The position numbers and the translations under genes are program-made. Of a DNA stretch of 64,000 bases, positions 8,173 through 49,299 are shown piece by piece. Within the stretch, counting starts at the first letter, position 1. Every line of letters starts with the position of its first letter. This DNA comes from Bacteroidota bacterium. Lineage in GTDB: Bacteria > Bacteroidota > Bacteroidia > Chitinophagales > Chitinophagaceae. The stretch spans positions 1-64,000 of the forward strand of contig JABDDT010000008.1 of NCBI GenBank assembly GCA_013287475.1. Reading direction: 5' to 3'. Under the pieces are notes generated by a model. It was not told the DNA's origin. It did not search any database and saw nothing but the letters and a program-made list of their open reading frames with translations.

Positions 8173-8210
8173 AAGCTTAAGGCTTAAGGCTTAAAGCCGA
8201 AAGCCTAAAA
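8173..8210. repeat. Short AAGGCTTA/AAAGCC repeat array
   Basis: Repeats of the heptamer AAGGCTT (AAGCTTAAGGCTTAAGGCTT) are followed by AAAGCCGAAAGCCTAAA, so part of the array folds back on itself. The units are close to those of the arrays at 26082-26281 and 28035-28209. Confidence 0.6.
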
Positions 8211-8250
8211 CTAAATACAATGCTAATTTGCAATTCCCAAATTAATTACT

Positions 8251-8306
8251 CAACCGTCAACCGTCAACCGTCAACCGTCAACCGTCAACCGTCAACCATC
8301 AACCGT
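8251..8306. repeat. Tandem array of eight CAACCGT heptamers at a gene end
   Basis: Eight head-to-tail copies of CAACCGT (the seventh is CAACCAT) run up to the 3' end of the threonine dehydrogenase gene. Read on the minus strand the unit is ACGGTTG. The stop codon TGA of that gene uses the last base of the array. Unlike the other arrays, no facing inverted arm is present. Confidence 0.85.
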
Positions 8307-9268
8307 CATCTCTTCGTGGAAACCGCCAGTCCCGGACTAATATGATGAATCATTTCTTCTGTCATTTTTTTCAGGTTGAAAGAAGGTTTCCATCCCCAGT
8401 CCCTGGCGGCAATGTGATCATCTATGGATTCCGGCCATGAATCTGCAATGGCCTGGCGGAAATCAGGCTGGTATTCGATGGTAAATTCCGGAATCAGGCG
8501 TTTTATTTCCCGGGCGATTTCCTCCGGAGTAAAACTGATGCCAGCCAGGTTATATGCCGTGCGTACAGATATTTTTGCCGCAGGGGCTTCCATCAATTCA
8601 ATGGTCGCTCGAACTGCATCATCCATATACATCATGGGTAACCGCTGATCAGCACGTAAAAAGCATGTATAATTTTCTCCGCGGATGGCTGAATGAAATA
8701 TTTCTATCGCATAATCTGTCGTTCCTCCGCCAGGCAGCGTTTTATAGCTGATAAGTCCGGGATAACGGATACTCCTTACATCTATTCCATAGCGGTAATA
8801 ATAATAATGACACCATTGTTCACCGGTTAATTTACTTATACCGTAAACAGTAGAAGGCGCTGAATAGGCATCCTGGGGACAGTTTTGTTTTGGAGCATCC
8901 TTACCAAAAACAGCAATACTGCTGGGCCAAAAAACTTTCGTTACAGATTCTTCCCGGGCTACTTCCAACGTATTGATCAGGCTTTGCATATTGAGCTGCC
9001 AGGCAAGGAGTGGATTCTTTTCTCCTGCTGCCGACAACATTGCTACCAGTAAGTAAATGGTTTTAATTTCATGGCGGCGTACCTGCACGCGAAGAATTTC
9101 CTTATCCATGATATCTAAAGGGAGAAAGGGGCCCGTGCCTTTCAATAAATCGGCTTCCCTTTTGAGATCTGCAGCAATAACCATTTCACCACTGAAATGC
9201 TGTCTGAGTGCTAATGTTAATTCAGTTCCGATCTGACCAGATGCACCGATTACGAGTATTTTATTCAA
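8306..9268 (-). CDS. tdh: L-threonine 3-dehydrogenase, short-chain dehydrogenase (SDR) type
   Basis: A 320-residue NAD-dependent enzyme of the extended SDR/UDP-galactose-epimerase-like family that oxidises L-threonine to 2-amino-3-oxobutyrate in the cytoplasm. Visible parts are the nucleotide-binding motif GASGQIG (residues 8-14), Ser near 116-117 (WPSSIAVFG), the catalytic pair Tyr142-xxx-Lys146 (YGISK), and PGLISYKTLPGGGTTDYA, a stretch typical of SDR threonine dehydrogenases. It reads from a TTG codon; no ATG is available before the Rossmann motif. The last codon is followed by TGA formed at the edge of the CAACCGT repeat array. A generic NAD-epimerase annotation is the less specific alternative. 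Confidence 0.85.
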   Translation of the reverse strand: MNKILVIGASGQIGTELTLALRQHFSGEMVIAADLKREADLLKGTGPFLPLDIMDKEILRVQVRRHEIKTIYLLVAMLSAAGEKNPLLAWQLNMQSLINTLEVAREESVTKVFWPSSIAVFGKDAPKQNCPQDAYSAPSTVYGISKLTGEQWCHYYYYRYGIDVRSIRYPGLISYKTLPGGGTTDYAIEIFHSAIRGENYTCFLRADQRLPMMYMDDAVRATIELMEAPAAKISVRTAYNLAGISFTPEEIAREIKRLIPEFTIEYQPDFRQAIADSWPESIDDHIAARDWGWKPSFNLKKMTEEMIHHISPGLAVSTKR

Positions 9269-12668: not shown

Positions 12669-12747
12669 ACAAGTATAGGAGTATAAGAGTATAAGAGTAT
12701 AGGTCCGGCACTCTTATACTCTTATACTCTTATACTCCTATACTTGT
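12669..12747. repeat. Facing inverted arrays of TATAAGAG octamers at the ABC-F stop codon
   Basis: Two perfect 33-base inverted arms (12669-12701 and 12715-12747) are built from the octamers TATAAGAG and TATAGGAG and separated by 13 bases. They can fold into one long hairpin. The right arm overlaps the last codons (..TSIGV) and the TAA stop of the minus-strand ABC-F gene. Similar arms occur at 20976-21095 and 49130-49299. Confidence 0.9.
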
Positions 12748-20951: not shown

Positions 20952-20975
20952 TATTGAATGGCAAATTTACAATAA

Positions 20976-21095
20976 AGTATAAGAGTATAAGAGTATAGGA
21001 GTATAAGAGTAAAGGAGAGAAATATATTTAGAAAGTAAATTAAAATTTATAGAATATTCAAAACACTCTTATACTCCTATACTCTTATACTCCTA
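20976..21095. repeat. Facing inverted arrays of TATAAGAG octamers
   Basis: The left array 20976-21010 and right array 21065-21095 carry the same 8-bp units as 12669-12747. The innermost 28 bases of each arm (20983-21010 and 21065-21092) are exact reverse complements around a 54-base AT-rich loop. The array lies downstream of the RRM gene and upstream of the ABC exporter start, so it may separate the two transcription units. Confidence 0.88.
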
Positions 21096-26081: not shown

Positions 26082-26281
26082 GAGCCTTTTTAAGCTTAAA
26101 GCCTTTTTAAGCTTAAAGCTTAAAGCCTTTTTAAGCCAAAAGCTTAAAGCCTTTTTAAGCTTAAAGCTTAAAGCCTAAAGCTTAAAGCTTAAAACCTATT
26201 AGGATTAGCAAATAATTTTTTATTCAGAGTTCTAAAAAGAAGTTTTAGGCTTTAGGCCTTAAGCTTTCAGCTTTAAAAGGC
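26082..26281. repeat. Facing arrays of AAGCTTAA/AAAGCC heptamers at the dps stop codon
   Basis: The left array (26082-26193) holds many copies of TTTTTAAGC, TTAAAGC and TTAAAGCC. A 50-base gap precedes a shorter opposed array (26240-26281: TTTTAGGCTTTAGGCC, TTAAGC, TTTCAGC). The opposed arm ends exactly at the TAA of dps. Units contain the self-complementary AAGCTT, so hairpins can form in many registers. Confidence 0.85.
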
Positions 26282-26850: not shown

Positions 26851-26918
26851 GAAATTCGTATATACGCCTGAAAAAACCGGGCGAAGAAATTCGTATATAC
26901 GCCTGAGAAAACCGGGCG
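26851..26918. repeat. Two direct 33-bp repeats carrying CGTATATACG
   Basis: Copies at 26851-26883 and 26886-26918 differ at one position and are separated by two bases. Each starts GAAATTCGTATATACGCC and ends AACCGGGCG, and contains the 10-bp palindrome CGTATATACG. They lie between the dps promoter and the stop codon of the DUF805 gene. Confidence 0.8.
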
Positions 26919-27692: not shown

Positions 27693-27800
27693 ATTTAGGA
27701 GCAAAGCATAAAGCGTGGGCGTAATCCTGAAGGATGAGAATTTTAGTTTATTTAAGAAGATAAATAATAGTGCAATTTTGAAATGAGCTAAACCGATAAA

Positions 27801-28040
27801 ATGGAAGAAAATCCCGACATACCCGTTTATACTGACGTAGAAGCAGTATTTAAACAACGCAAAACAACGGAAGACAAAGTTCAGATGATTGCGACCTGCA
27901 CATTAAATGGTAAAACAAACCGTAGTGTATGGATAGAAGTGCCTACCGTTTTATATAACGGGTACAAAGGCAAAGTTCGCATTATTGAATTCAATATTAA
28001 AAACGGATTGCTTGAAGTGCTGAAAGTTCAGAAAGCGTAA
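27801..28040 (+). CDS. Small protein of unknown function
   Basis: A 79-residue protein without recognised domains, signal peptide or membrane segment. Beta strands are likely (VQMIATCTLNGKTNRSVWIEVPTVLYNGYKGKVRIIEFN). It lies 108 bases after another small unknown gene. Its TAA stop is the first stop in the GCGTAACGCTTAAAGC repeat array, and the final residues (QKA) touch that array. Confidence 0.6.
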   Translation: MEENPDIPVYTDVEAVFKQRKTTEDKVQMIATCTLNGKTNRSVWIEVPTVLYNGYKGKVRIIEFNIKNGLLEVLKVQKA

Positions 28041-28209
28041 CGCTTAAAGCTTAACGCTTAAAGCTTAACGCAAAAAATTAAAATGTATTTAATCTACATA
28101 AAACTAGGTATTAGTCCTGTAGCACTGTGCTTGGCGTTAAGCGTTACGCGTTAAGCGTTAAGCGTTAAGCGTTTTGCTTTAGGCTTTAAGCTTTAAGCTT
28201 TAAGCTTTA
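28035..28209. repeat. Facing arrays of GCGTTAA/AAGCTTAA heptamers holding the stop codons of both convergent genes
   Basis: The left array (28035-28071) alternates CTTAACG and CTTAAAG units. The opposed array (28133-28209) contains GCGTTAA units followed by GCTTTAA units. About 60 bases separate them. The TAA of the plus-strand gene (28038-28040) and the TAA of the minus-strand dehydratase (28202-28200) both lie inside the arrays. Confidence 0.9.
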
Positions 28210-28433
28210 ATAGCGTCTATCTTTTTCGCCAGTTTCCGGTCTTTCTCCGTTACAATATCGCCGGCATCATGGGTGTTTAACCAGACCTCCACTTCATTAT
28301 AAACATTGGTCCATTTCGGATGATGATCCATTTTTTCTGCTTCCAATGCAATTCGGGTCATGAACGCAAAAGCTTCGGAGAAGTTTTGAAATTTGAACTT
28401 TTTATAAAGAGTATTTTCTTTTTCTTCCCACAT
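28200..28433 (-). CDS. phhB: 4a-hydroxytetrahydrobiopterin dehydratase (pterin carbinolamine dehydratase)
   Basis: A 77-residue enzyme that dehydrates the 4a-hydroxypterin made by aromatic amino acid hydroxylases, recycling the cofactor. The family motif '[20 protein letters not shown]' carries the active-site His pair and Trp, and '[22 protein letters not shown]' is the usual C-terminus. The ATG at 28433 is preferred; it lies 5 bases after the PRC-barrel stop, so the two are co-transcribed. The stop codon comes from the repeat array. No hydroxylase gene is nearby. Confidence 0.9.
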
Positions 28434-28438
28434 ATAAT

Positions 28439-28861
28439 TTATATAAATCTCCAATAACTATGAACATCATCAAAATGCAGATTGGTATCCGGCCAGTGAT
28501 CCATATCGAATCCGGGCGCTTTTTCAAGAATTTCTTTCGCCTGTTCAAAAACAAACCGTTTATTGGGTGCATCCAGTTTTAGCAGCCGAAAAGGAATGGC
28601 GAAATATTTTACTCCCAAACCAAGAAATCCGCCGAATTCGATCACGTAATAATCAATCCTGCCAGATTCCATATCCAGCATGACCTCCTTCATTTCTCCC
28701 AAATGCTCACCTCCGGGATTCACCACTTTGTCACCTTCCAATGATGAAGCGGTAAGATATCTTCCCTTTTGATTAGGAAGAAGAGGACCTTTATTTTCAC
28801 CGGATAAATTATCGTTTTCAAATAGCTGCTCTTTCGCTTTCTCGTCTATTTTTGTATCCAT
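28439..28861 (-). CDS. PRC-barrel domain protein
   Basis: A 140-residue soluble protein. The central part '[60 protein letters not shown]' fits a PRC-barrel (about 35-95), a beta-barrel shared by RimM and the photosynthetic reaction-centre H subunit. The C-terminal '[10 protein letters not shown]' region is common in stress-related bacterial versions. The function is unknown. It is the first gene of a pair with the pterin dehydratase. Confidence 0.82.
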
Positions 28862-40360: not shown

Positions 40361-43279
40361 ATGAACCGGGTGCTTTATTTTTTACTTTTCTTCTGTACAG
40401 CCATTGTAAAAGGTCAAAATCCCATCGGTATTCCTGACATTATTAACTACTACAAAAGCAGTTACAATGCCGGAACTGAAAATAGAAGCATCGTGCAGGA
40501 TCAGAATGGGATCATGTATTTCGCTAATCTGGACGGATTACTCAGTTTTGACGGTTCTTCCTGGAAATTGTACTCCATCCCAAACAAGACAATCGTCCGC
40601 TCAATTATCATGGGGAAGGACAACAGGATATATGCCGGTGGCCAGGATGATTTCGGCTATTTCAGTCCTGATAAAAATGGAAAATTATTCTTTACTTCTC
40701 TGAAGCCACTATTATCTAAAAGAGACTATTCATTTACGGATATCTGGAATATTGTAACGTTGGGCAACGATGTTTTTTTCCGTTCAAAGGAGAAGATTTT
40801 TCAATATAACGGCTACTCTATTACGGTGTATCCCGCTCCCAGTGAATGGGCTTTTCTCGGAATTGGCAACAACACACTAATTGCCCAGGACCTGAATGCC
40901 GGACTCATGAAATTCAATAACGGCCTTTGGACAAGTTATCTTGACGACCCACCTCTTCCTTCAGGGTTCATTGTTTCATCGATGTTTCCTTTTGGCAATG
41001 ACAGTAGTTTTCTTACTACAATCACGTCGGGATTTTTTATTTTATATAAAAATAAACTGACTCCATTCCGGTTCGCAGGTTTTAATCCCTTACAGAACCA
41101 GCGTATCCTGACTGCGATTCCCGTGACAAATGACTGGATTGGGGTTGGTACAAATATGAATGGCTGTTATGTTGTAAACAAAAAGGGTGAGGTAATTCAG
41201 AATCTTTCCCGTAAGGAGGGGTTGCAAATAAATAATATCCTTTCCATGTTTCTGGACAAGGACAATAATCTGTGGCTGGGTCTTGATGACGGCATTGATT
41301 TTATTGCTTATAACAATGCCATAAAACATATTTATCCGGAAAAACTCAATGAAGGCAAAGGATATACGTCCCTGATTTACGAGGATGCGCTGTATGTCGG
41401 CACTTCCAATGGCTTCTATAAAGTGCCTATGAAAGGGAAAACAGATCTGAGTTTCGTAGACGGCGATTTCATTCCTTTGCCTTACTCAAAAGGTTCTTCC
41501 TGGTGTCTCACTGATATCAATGGAGAACTATTATTTGGATATCATGACGGGTCTTATACTTTGCATTCAGGACAGGAGGCAACTATAAATTCTTCTGTAG
41601 GTTTTCATTGCTTTCTTCCATTATCAAATGTGCTTCCATCCAGACTGGTTTTAGCCGGTAATGAATCCGGACTTGATATTTTGGAATGGGATAACAAACA
41701 ATTTATTTCAAAAGGAAATATTCCGGGTTTCAGCGAATATTCCCAGTTTGTTGCAATAGATAATAATAATACAATCTGGGTCGGTCACCCTTATCGTGGA
41801 ATTTATAAAATAGATCCCCGTCCCGGCATGACAGCAATCGTTCGGTTATACACTGATGAACAGGGTCTTCCTTCTTCTGTAAAAAATCAATTATACAAGG
41901 TTTTAAACAGGATCGTTGTGGCTACGGAGAAAGGTATTTATGAATATGACCCAAAGACTGACAGGTTTGAACAGTCCCCATATTTTACTTCATTTTTCGG
42001 CACGCGGAATATCAGGTATCTCAAAGAAGATGCGTCTGGTAATATCTGGTTCGTGGAAGATAAAAATTTAGGGGTCTTAGACTTTTCCTGGAAAGTTCCT
42101 AAAATAATATACTTCCCGGAACTGAATGGTAAAATGGTCGGAGGTGATGAAAACGTTTATCCCTATAATAATTCTAATATCCTCGTTGGATCTGAAAAGG
42201 GATTTTATCATATTAATTATGATGCATATAAAAAGAACCGTTACAGATTAGACGTTATGATCCGTTCAGTAAAAGCCTTTGGTAATTCGGACAGCCTGCT
42301 GTTTGGAGGATATTTTGATCAGATAAACCATCCGCTGATTCAACCACAAACCGATGTTCCGAGTGTAAGCAACAATATGAATTCCATTCATTTTGAATAT
42401 TCTGCACCTGTATATGCACAGCAATCAAATGTTCAATACAGTTATTTATTGAATGGATTCAATACTTCCTGGTCAGAATGGTCTAAAAAATCGGAAAAAG
42501 AATATACAAACCTTCCTCCCGGACAATATGAATTTCTGGTTAGAGCGAAAAATAACCTGGGCAATGAATCTTCAGTAAAAATCTACAAGTTTATCGTTTT
42601 ACCTCCATGGTATCAGACAACCTTTGCTTATATATCCTATGTGTTACTGATATTAGGAATTATCTACCTGATATTCCGCTGGCAAAAACAAATTTTTCTT
42701 GAACAGCAACAAAAATATGAAGATGAGCAAAAAAAATTAACCTACCTCCATGAGCTGGAACTGGAAAAATCCGAGAAAGAGATAGTAAAACTCCGAAATG
42801 AAAAACTGGAATCAGAAATCGCATTTAAAAATACTGAACTTGCATCCACTGCCATGCATCTGGTACAGAAGGGCGAACTCCTGGGCAACATTAAAGATGA
42901 GATGAGCCGGATTAAGAAAAATGCAAACGGCCATGCTGCACCTGATGAGTTTAAAAAAATCATGCGCATCCTGAGTGAAGAAAATAAAATGGACAAAGAC
43001 TGGGAGCTATTTGCTCAGCACTTTGATCATGTACATAGTGATTTCCTGAGTAATATTAAAACGCAATATCCAACGCTCAGTCCGCATGAATTGAAACTTT
43101 GCGCTTACCTGAGAATGAATCTTTCCAGTAAAGAAATTGCGCAGCTTGAGAGCATATCCGTTCGCGGGGTAGAAATTGGCAGGTACAGGCTGAGGAAAAA
43201 ACTGAAAATTAATACTGAAACTAATCTTTTTGACTTCCTGCTTGAAATTTCCTCACATGATATAAAAACTAAGGTCTAA
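40361..43279 (+). CDS. Membrane-spanning Reg_prop/Y_Y_Y regulator with C-terminal LuxR-type HTH, no kinase
   Basis: A 972-residue one-protein signalling receptor. The ATG at 40361 begins a signal peptide (MNRVLYFLLFFCTAIVKGQ). Periplasmic Reg_prop propeller repeats (NLWLGLDDGIDFIAY, TIWVGHPYRGIYKI, NIWFVEDKNLGVLD) are followed by a Y_Y_Y domain (QYSYLLNGFNTSWSEWS, LPPGQYEFLVRAKN), one membrane helix (TTFAYISYVLLILGIIYLIF), a long coiled coil (about 785-850) and a C-terminal HTH (LSPHELKLCAYLRMNLSSKEIAQL, GVEIGRYRLRKKL). No HisKA, HATPase or receiver domain is present. It is divergent from the propeller/SusCD set. The stop codon abuts a repeat array. Confidence 0.9.
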   Translation: MNRVLYFLLFFCTAIVKGQNPIGIPDIINYYKSSYNAGTENRSIVQDQNGIMYFANLDGLLSFDGSSWKLYSIPNKTIVRSIIMGKDNRIYAGGQDDFGYFSPDKNGKLFFTSLKPLLSKRDYSFTDIWNIVTLGNDVFFRSKEKIFQYNGYSITVYPAPSEWAFLGIGNNTLIAQDLNAGLMKFNNGLWTSYLDDPPLPSGFIVSSMFPFGNDSSFLTTITSGFFILYKNKLTPFRFAGFNPLQNQRILTAIPVTNDWIGVGTNMNGCYVVNKKGEVIQNLSRKEGLQINNILSMFLDKDNNLWLGLDDGIDFIAYNNAIKHIYPEKLNEGKGYTSLIYEDALYVGTSNGFYKVPMKGKTDLSFVDGDFIPLPYSKGSSWCLTDINGELLFGYHDGSYTLHSGQEATINSSVGFHCFLPLSNVLPSRLVLAGNESGLDILEWDNKQFISKGNIPGFSEYSQFVAIDNNNTIWVGHPYRGIYKIDPRPGMTAIVRLYTDEQGLPSSVKNQLYKVLNRIVVATEKGIYEYDPKTDRFEQSPYFTSFFGTRNIRYLKEDASGNIWFVEDKNLGVLDFSWKVPKIIYFPELNGKMVGGDENVYPYNNSNILVGSEKGFYHINYDAYKKNRYRLDVMIRSVKAFGNSDSLLFGGYFDQINHPLIQPQTDVPSVSNNMNSIHFEYSAPVYAQQSNVQYSYLLNGFNTSWSEWSKKSEKEYTNLPPGQYEFLVRAKNNLGNESSVKIYKFIVLPPWYQTTFAYISYVLLILGIIYLIFRWQKQIFLEQQQKYEDEQKKLTYLHELELEKSEKEIVKLRNEKLESEIAFKNTELASTAMHLVQKGELLGNIKDEMSRIKKNANGHAAPDEFKKIMRILSEENKMDKDWELFAQHFDHVHSDFLSNIKTQYPTLSPHELKLCAYLRMNLSSKEIAQLESISVRGVEIGRYRLRKKLKINTETNLFDFLLEISSHDIKTKV

Positions 43280-43374
43280 TTGTTAGTTGTTAATTGTTAG
43301 TTGTTATTATTTATAGTAGTGTATCGTTTAGAACTTATTTGTTAACAATTAACAACTAACAATTAATAATTAAA
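43277..43374. repeat. Facing arrays of TTGTTAG/TTGTTAA heptamers holding the stop codons of both convergent genes
   Basis: The left array (43277-43306) is TAATTGTTAGTTGTTAATTG and on. The right array (43342-43374) is its reverse complement (TTAACAATTAACAACTAACA and on), with at least 21 bases exactly matched and a 35-base gap. The TAA of the plus-strand regulator and the TAA of the minus-strand isomerase-like gene are both part of the arrays. Confidence 0.9.
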
Positions 43375-49120: not shown

Positions 49121-49129
49121 ACTCTAGGA

Positions 49130-49299
49130 AGTATAAGAGTATAAGAGTATAAGAGTATAGGAGTTTAAGAGTGGAGGATCGTTAATCGTTGTTTTTGCCC
49201 TTAAATAAATTCACTGAATATTATTCTCTCTAATACTCCTATACTCTTATACTCTTATATTCTTATACTAATACTCTTATACTCCTATACTCTTATACT
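49130..49299. repeat. Facing inverted arrays of TATAAGAG octamers between convergent genes
   Basis: The left array 49130-49174 (AGTATAAG and AGTATAGG units) and opposed right array 49231-49299 (ACTCTTAT and ACTCCTAT units) are separated by about 55 bases. The array fills the whole gap between the SMP-30-like gene and the LytM-like gene. The TAG stop of the latter (49300-49298) is made at the array's edge. Confidence 0.9.

Follow-up and report, generated by a model that had tools for sequence, protein, structure and literature searches.

Two convergent genes on this contig of a Bacteroidota bacterium both end inside tandem 7-bp repeats that face each other, raising the question of what kind of element occupies the ends of two genes at once. 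A first-pass annotation had read the repeats as a dual device terminating both the translation and the transcription of the two genes. We analyzed the locus within the window, i.e. the whole stretch of 64,000 nucleotides at positions 1 to 64,000 of contig JABDDT010000008.1, and delineated the following features:

27801–28040, plus strand: small conserved gene of 79 amino acids, no Pfam match at E 0.001; its TAA (28038–28040) lies inside a repeat unit
28032–28071, plus strand: left arm, 7-mer array with units xTAA[A/C]GC (AACGCTT/AAAGCTT), from Tandem Repeats Finder and units marked on the sequence
28072–28133, no strand: core between the arms, 62 bp, searched for gene remnants at E 0.01 and compared with 24 other cores
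28134–28210, minus strand: right arm, 7-mer array in inverted orientation relative to the left arm, with units GC[G/T]TTAx (Tandem Repeats Finder)
28200–28433, minus strand: pterin-4a-carbinolamine dehydratase, PF01329 (Pterin_4a, E 1.7e-27); its stop lies inside a repeat unit

Tandem Repeats Finder called the left arm as the 14-mer AAAGCTTAACGCTT, equal to two 7-mers, and the right arm as the 7-mer GCGTTAA in 11 copies. In line with the annotation, the arms are inverted relative to each other (inverted score 25 vs direct score 13), and RNA folding bore out a strong hairpin in either transcript, with −66 kcal/mol for the plus and −62 kcal/mol for the minus strand (z −4.7 and −5.5, respectively); for each strand, 0 of 200 shuffles were as stable as the region. 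Arrays arising by chance were rejected based on the inverted order, the shuffled folds and the control windows given below. Likewise, a known RNA family was rejected, as all 17 Rfam matches obtained for 25–31 kb up to E 0.5 stayed under their gathering scores, the microRNA-like ones being sub-threshold matches to the long hairpin. A search for intrinsic terminators, consisting of a short GC-rich stem followed by a T run, gave 0 sites in 27700–28600.

The annotation had further proposed that the repeat units supply both stop codons. Both indeed lie inside units, but the stop of the plus-strand gene is also present in species devoid of the array. The product of this gene ends in ...KVQKA* in four species, with TAA as the stop codon in the array-less G016 and G003 and TGA in G005, and in this comparison the stop looks to predate the array. 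The carboxy-terminus of the pterin dehydratase reads IDAIKA* here, IDSIKI* in G016, IDSLAG* in G003 and IDSLSLKPKP* in G005, and its stop codon together with the last residues looks array-derived in our genome. At the same position G016 has no array, the stop codons of both genes overlapping at TTAA, G003 has a short spacer without array, and G005 has other sequence with an inverted TAGTGTGG-like repeat recognized by eye and no array called by Tandem Repeats Finder. If convergent genes with TTAA-overlapping stops as in G016 were the starting state, the growing right arm would have overwritten the final codons of the pterin dehydratase, stop included; this is the direction of change that we infer. 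At each of the four window sites compared, sister species differ from our genome. Among relatives this distant (aligned stretches mostly 66–80% nucleotide identity), no target-site duplication was apparent at the locus.

IVP genes between inverted tandem arrays

The repeat unit of the locus belongs to the gene family of the 23S rRNA intervening sequence protein (IVP; PF05635/TIGR02436, S23p), a four-helix-bundle protein. In the genome that holds the window (G000; 3.16 Mb, 74% complete), we found seven PF05635 genes, all with tandem arrays of 7-mers, 8-mers or a 13-mer on both sides; six of these seven loci exceed the threshold for inverted arms (score of at least 15), and the gene on contig C24 contains an internal stop. 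An element on contig C22, built from the unit family of our locus, carries an open reading frame of this kind in its core. The IVP family is present in 18 of 29 genomes of relatives and in 116 of 148 genomes of a Bacteroidota sample.

Among the best-scoring loci, to which the following counts are confined, this architecture recurs across phyla. The first set of such loci (65 in hand, 64 used, one being dropped for a short flank) showed arrays on at least one side in 56, on both sides in 31 and in inverted orientation in 30 of 64, whereas 123 control windows taken from these loci gave 20, 0 and 0. A named-genome set, comprising the best 80 of 582 loci of which 74 had enough flank, yielded inverted arms for 32 of 74 loci vs 2 of 264 controls, both within the Bacteroidota (20/52; controls 1/193) and in other groups (12/22; controls 1/71), the latter including Chloroflexota, Clostridia, Acidobacteria, Omnitrophica, Ignavibacteria and Planctomycetes. 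Together the two sets, which may share genomes, amount to inverted arms at 62 of 138 IVP loci vs 2 of 387 control windows. The remaining 76 of 138 loci have no inverted pair at the threshold, and some carry direct arrays (L234, L090, L203); both observations count against the reading favored below. The autocorrelation of the IVP flanks has maxima at lags 7, 14 and 21 and a weaker one at lag 8, with an excess at lag 7 of z 8.8, 8.2 and 7.7.

IVP matches were also obtained for 25 plasmid records, most of them cyanobacterial. Among ten cyanobacterial plasmid IVP genes, inverted arms were clear for four, weaker for two and marginal for two, one having direct arrays and one none. One query against phages at E 1e-5 gave no match. 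All IVP loci for which neighbors were checked lie between protein genes. On such plasmids, one IVP gene with direct arrays lies inside a CRISPR-cas operon between cas6 and cas4 (L234, 2285–2966), another inside a CRISPR-cas operon between cas10 and a Cmr3-type gene (L241, 2456–2885), and a third, on a Nostoc plasmid, between annotated ribonucleotide reductase subunits with near-perfect inverted AGTAGGG arms (L236, 2395–2893). IVP genes in cas loci are noted in a passage of PMC3936711. Across unrelated units, the 5′ arms of IVP genes are G-rich (G>C in 85/111, G<C in 22/111) and the 3′ arms C-rich (G<C in 99/123, G>C in 20/123), the unit family of our locus being the exception to this strand bias. 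Sequence relatives of IVP with solved structures are 2gsc and 2rld, and the Xanthomonas relative is described as a pentamer in a passage of PMC4990558. Passages of PMC11270868 and PMC4990558 call the IVP/S23p family functionally uncharacterised.

In the window, six array pairs are inverted, and their units fall into three families. Besides the locus under study, the following elements were delineated:

8175–8308, no strand: two arrays with different units (GCTTAAG, TCAACCG) flanking a single spacer, without a call as inverted pair (Tandem Repeats Finder)
12672–12744, no strand: second-family element with inverted 8-mer arms AGTATAAG / ACTCTTAT, sharing its unit with the contig C27 IVP gene (Tandem Repeats Finder, inversion score)
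20972–21095, no strand: second-family element with inverted 8-mer arms; by eye, this array is missing from G016 and G003, and G005 has a different sequence
26083–26276, no strand: element of the same family as our locus, inverted 7-mer arms AAGCTTA / AAGCTTT; by eye, G005 and G016 have a different sequence here
43277–43373, no strand: third-family element with inverted 7-mer arms TTGTTAG / TTAACAA (Tandem Repeats Finder, inversion score)
49125–49299, no strand: second-family element with inverted 8-mer arms AGTATAAG / CTCTTATA (Tandem Repeats Finder, inversion score)

A near-perfect tandem duplication of a 35-bp stretch lies at 26851–26918 of the window.

Matching of arrays and IVP genes

At E 0.01, the 62-bp core of our locus contains no trace of an IVP gene, nor does it match any of the 24 other cores of its genome, and the locus is very probably a gene-less member of the IVP-linked array family. 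The plan of such an element comprises an arm of tandem 7- or 8-mers, a core and an inverted second arm, with the IVP gene carried in the core of the full form. We favor, with moderate confidence, the reading that the locus is a gene-less IVP hairpin element and that IVP lets arrays of its own unit spread as selfish repeats; for the selfish spread taken by itself we see an even chance. An IVP oligomer may recognize its own unit in folded nucleic acid, and this binding would allow arrays of the unit to be copied or maintained, both where they already exist and at new sites. The arrays would thus form a population of selfish repeats that depends on a single gene.

Both arms share the same period class at all 79 callable loci (168 examined), 63 having period 7 and 16 period 8. 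On an IVP tree with few columns and many weak forks, the period changes 15 times vs a shuffled mean of 25.4, with 0 of 500 shuffles as low. Against the favored reading, the clustering of period with protein neighbors below 60% identity was not significant (136 of 2000 permutations). The similarity of units correlates with IVP protein identity (Mantel r 0.175, or 0.103 without pairs at 60% identity or more; permutation standard deviation 0.017), a correlation that must in part be plain descent of whole elements. At one IVP locus common to three species the unit has drifted (GTTGACG/GTTGGCG/GTTGATG), both arms together, as seen by eye.

Likewise, the units recur away from the genes. The 175-bp stretch of our locus gave 126 matches in its own genome, often as close minus/plus pairs, and we composed a 390-kb sample from the window, 34 stretches picked at such matches and six contig starts, a choice that favors the unit of our locus. 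In this sample, six of the seven IVP units, including that of our locus, recur outside their own locus (at 28, 13, 9, 2, 2 and 2 places), as compared to a mean of 0–0.1 places for permuted units. The two-place recurrence of three of these units and the 0 copies found for the C2 unit, a 13-mer tested by its 8-mer part, weaken the case. The double 8-mer AGTATAAG has 70 matches in our genome, 20 in G005 and 0 in 17 other genomes, and the IVP unit of G008 has 39 matches on 14 G008 contigs (five at the IVP gene itself) vs 0–2 in each of 13 other genomes. The match is incomplete in three relatives, again to the disadvantage of the favored reading: G005 (58% complete) holds its 20 AGTATAAG matches with this unit in none of the six IVPs found, G016 (77% complete) has 39 matches to the 7-mer element and one IVP found, with another unit, and of the 12 inverted pairs found in 100 kb of G015, about half could not be assigned by eye, from their units, to any of its six IVPs. 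G015 holds 42 arrays per 100 kb (L309–L313), with CTTTGCGT-like units in three inverted pairs, unmatched by eye to the six IVPs. In L059, a 20-kb stretch of our genome, the 12-mer tandem AGTAAATGAATA or a near variant occurs at 2985, 8682, 9867 and 10815.

Among the stretches sampled from same-genus genomes, array pairs are confined to genomes that bear IVP. Five of these contain 25 inverted pairs in 552 kb (19 in 488 kb without the window) and 0 direct pairs, whereas four near-complete genomes without detected IVP (G007, G009, G011, G014) contain 0 inverted and 0 direct pairs in 306 kb, to which G007 contributes only 24 kb. Arrays of period 7 or 8 number 0 to 2.5 per 100 kb without IVP vs 5 to 42 with IVP. 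G010 has IVP genes and 0 array pairs in its 98 kb sampled, which speaks against the favored reading.

For the unit family of our locus, 71 arms of at least three units were counted in the 390-kb sample, of which 3 belong to IVP-bearing elements (L039, L053). Within 400 bp, a forward arm is followed by a reverse arm in 19 cases and a reverse arm by a forward arm in none, with two forward–forward and one reverse–reverse combinations. The 19 forward–reverse pairs account for 38 of the 71 arms; that 33 have no partner within 400 bp, and that six contig starts of the same genome (120 kb) hold 0 inverted pairs as compared to all six within the window, counts against the favored reading. The cores of the gene-less copies are not homologous, one partial 27-bp match being found among 25 cores, and homology throughout the element, core included, as for MITE/IS-type elements was absent from these 25. 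That the gene-less cores are decayed IVP genes was rejected, as only the known IVP core L039 matched and the best of the other 24 reached E 0.021. Unrelated cores without IVP remnant at E 0.01 argue against copying of whole elements and for a spread of the arms themselves.

An alternative account takes the repeats as independent, born by slippage or of other origin, and IVP as a passenger that tolerates arrays or lands preferentially in them. Slippage can lengthen tandem arrays, and the unrelated cores, the absence of a recognizable catalytic motif in 13 IVPs aligned and inspected by eye, and the 33 of 71 arms unpaired at the threshold all weigh against the favored reading and fit this account. 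It is nevertheless unlikely in view of the strictly one-sided order of the paired arms and the joint drift of both arms at the locus common to three species; moreover, it leaves aside the match of unit and period between IVP gene and arms and with the gene-less copies, as well as the lack of array pairs in sampled genomes without IVP.

Gene ends, transcripts and remaining explanations

The arms of the 390-kb sample are placed at gene ends. Among 70 arms with a callable neighbor, 48 face a gene 3′ end, 29 overlapping it, 14 lying within 25 bp and 5 further off, so that 43 of 70 abut or overlap a 3′ end; the gene calls underlying these counts are mechanical, taking the longest open frames. The control of 128 of 1159 random intergenic points within 25 bp of a gene 3′ end cannot overlap genes, and the like-for-like comparison is thus 14/70 vs 128/1159, with the 29 overlaps on top. 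This comparison covers part of the genome-wide test for enrichment at gene ends that the first-pass annotation had proposed, for one unit family in a genome sample. The stop codon coincides with the TAA of a unit in 27 of the 29 overlapping arms (offsets −3, −10, −17). Since any frame entering such an array must soon stop, these counts establish that arms abut gene ends and do not imply a design for stopping translation.

IVP-bearing elements also occur inside co-directional gene pairs, e.g. between a MoxR-type ATPase and DUF58 or between the large and small subunits of acetolactate synthase. The IVP gene lies on the strand of its upstream neighbor at 138 of 155 loci, as compared to about 55% expected from the neighboring gene pairs of our genome (72 codirectional, 31 convergent, 29 divergent), and between two genes of its own strand at 108 of 139 loci with both neighbors within 400 bp. 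This same-strand bias suggests that the elements tend to lie within transcripts and fits a tolerance of the hairpin at the RNA level, as in rRNA intervening sequences. Under the favored reading, most insertions that survive would be those immediately behind a stop codon or in the spacer of a transcribed gene pair, where the element could loop out of the transcript as a hairpin in the manner of the 23S rRNA intervening sequences.

The MoxR/DUF58 site, with genes named by Pfam, shows gain or loss of the element between species. Its spacer measures 530 bp in G008 and 598 bp in G005, both with IVP, vs 6–50 bp in nine relatives; G015 has 243 bp with an IVP-like remnant recognized by eye and G010 149 bp. 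In G006 an IVP gene precedes DUF58 where the contig ends, our genome's contig starts inside DUF58, and the search at this site gave no match for G003, G004 and G016. Upstream of the DUF58 gene of G015 (L257), a seemingly decayed IVP element was noted by eye, with an array-like CACATAGAAACATAG and the carboxy-terminal IVP-like remnant.

A further account is an RNA system serving the host, in which IVP would bind arms at mRNA ends to protect or process transcripts and selection would keep the arrays. The placement at 3′ ends and in co-directional spacers and the joint drift of arms are in its favor, as is the presence of IVP at the same locus in several species (MoxR/DUF58; the acetolactate synthase subunits in G010 and G006; an aminotransferase gene in G015 and G010). 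Given that sister species differ at each of the four window sites, that a genome holds several unit families and that the sampled relatives without IVP also lack array pairs, we give this explanation only a small probability.

The dual device of the first-pass annotation, ending translation and transcription of both convergent genes, is improbable. Its premises hold in that the units contain the stops, both transcripts form strong hairpins and arms are enriched at gene 3′ ends. On both strands, stop triplets reach a higher density in arms (0.083 and 0.057) than in shuffles (0.063 and 0.039, respectively). The notion that such units stop every frame applies to part of the arrays, stops in all three frames within 28 nt being present in 0.33 of 111 IVP 5′ arms (letter-shuffled 0.07); with about a third of arms doing so, all-frame stopping is no general rule. 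The device itself found no support: the locus has no terminator-like site, and the same architecture occurs inside co-directional pairs, where a terminator would prevent transcription of the second gene. In addition, the left stop exists in species without the array, sister species differ in arrays at this very site, and the link to IVP is left unexplained.

We consider it highly improbable that the arrays are a REP/REPIN- or MITE-like population mobilized by a transposase, be it a RAYT (Y1) or another one, or a retroelement with reverse transcriptase: despite the REPIN/RAYT-like combination of a gene with gene-less copies, inverted pairs and extragenic placement, the distant relation of IVP to Avd of diversity-generating retroelements (passages of PMC10053308; below cut-off here) and the co-occurrence of IVP with Y1_Tnp (G010, G015, G025, G002) and RVT_1 (G002, G019), such an engine is unsupported, as G008 (99% complete) bears IVP and arrays with no match to RVT_1 (PF00078) or Y1_Tnp (PF01797), the IVP-bearing G010 and G015 (99% complete) have no PF00078 match, the IVP-lacking G007, G009, G011 and G014 have Y1_Tnp matches yet 0 array pairs in the sample, the cores are non-homologous and the units form 7–8 bp tandem arrays.

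Returning to the gene-less IVP hairpin element, we tentatively propose, at somewhat less than even chances, that IVP genes and inverted tandem arrays form an unrecognized element class in which a small four-helix protein with no known catalytic motif specifies unit and period and which spreads without dedicated transposase or reverse transcriptase. Tying IVP to the dispersed heptamer arrays of bacteria gives both one testable function, the recognition of unit and period by a small protein. If IVP drives the spread, repeats would be moved or templated without any known enzyme; if it serves mRNA ends instead, a new protein–RNA system at gene ends would emerge. Either way, the role of intervening sequence proteins becomes directly testable.

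Relation to known systems

REPIN/RAYT units are single short palindromes, whereas the units here are tandem 7- and 8-mers. The two systems share the combination of one gene with many gene-less inverted copies in extragenic space (for REPIN/RAYT, cf. PMC3116915 and PMC8266576). They differ in that no Y1 transposase match was found in the array-bearing G008 (99% complete) or in our own genome (74% complete; PF01797), and no Y1 family was among the NCBIfam matches of the IVPs tested. The NCBIfam model DivGenRetAVD matched three of five IVPs tested, weakly and in all cases below the cut-off (20.1–28.5 bits vs 80). As for diversity-generating retroelements as such, the IVP-bearing G008, G010 and G015 have no RVT_1 match.

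A further comparison is with the heptamer repeats of Xanthomonas and Nostoc and with cyanobacterial STRRs; the clear inverted arms of four of the ten plasmid IVP genes consist of G-rich short repeats. The heptamers GGGAATC (Xanthomonas) and GGGGA[C/T]T (Nostoc) are described as G-quadruplex repeats in passages of PMC4692102, which count 70 cases of inverted convergent pairs for GGGAATC and few inverted pairs for Nostoc. Like our arrays, these are 7-mers near stop codons and between aligned genes; the passages make no link to an IVP gene, the Xanthomonas IVP being Xcc0516. The TAACTGA repeats of Beggiatoaceae, cyanobacteria and some Bacteroidetes resemble our arrays as dispersed tandem heptamers, some overlapping gene stops, but in the main genome studied they lie mostly just before start codons, in direct orientation with one inverted case, and are read as translational regulators (passages of PMC4679880). 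Within the portions of the literature searched (including PMC3936711, PMC4990558, PMC4679880, PMC10910872, PMC11270868, PMC8700078, PMC5524665, PMC10053308 and PMC4692102; most subscription papers and all preprints lay outside the scope), no link between IVP genes and inverted tandem arrays appeared.

The 23S rRNA intervening sequences differ in their location, our locus lying between two protein genes instead of in an rRNA gene, and in their arms, which here are tandem arrays with a gene-specific unit and with gene-less copies genome-wide; moreover, our locus has no IVP open reading frame in its 62-bp core. In common, they are hairpin elements with inverted ends around a gene of the IVP/S23p family. 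In the rRNA case, RNase III excises the intervening sequence from the transcript. The inverted ends of our locus form a stem, based on folding and inversion score, and the gene-bearing form holds the IVP open reading frame inside, with seven PF05635 genes between arrays, a reading frame that is absent also from some intervening sequences. For the Coxiella intervening sequence, heptamer repeats before the S23p open reading frame are described in a passage of PMC4990558, where the old idea of mobile intervening sequences is also quoted. If true, the proposed class would give one account for the Bacteroidota heptamer arrays, the cyanobacterial STRRs, the Xanthomonas GGGAATC arrays and the IVP-bearing 23S rRNA intervening sequences.
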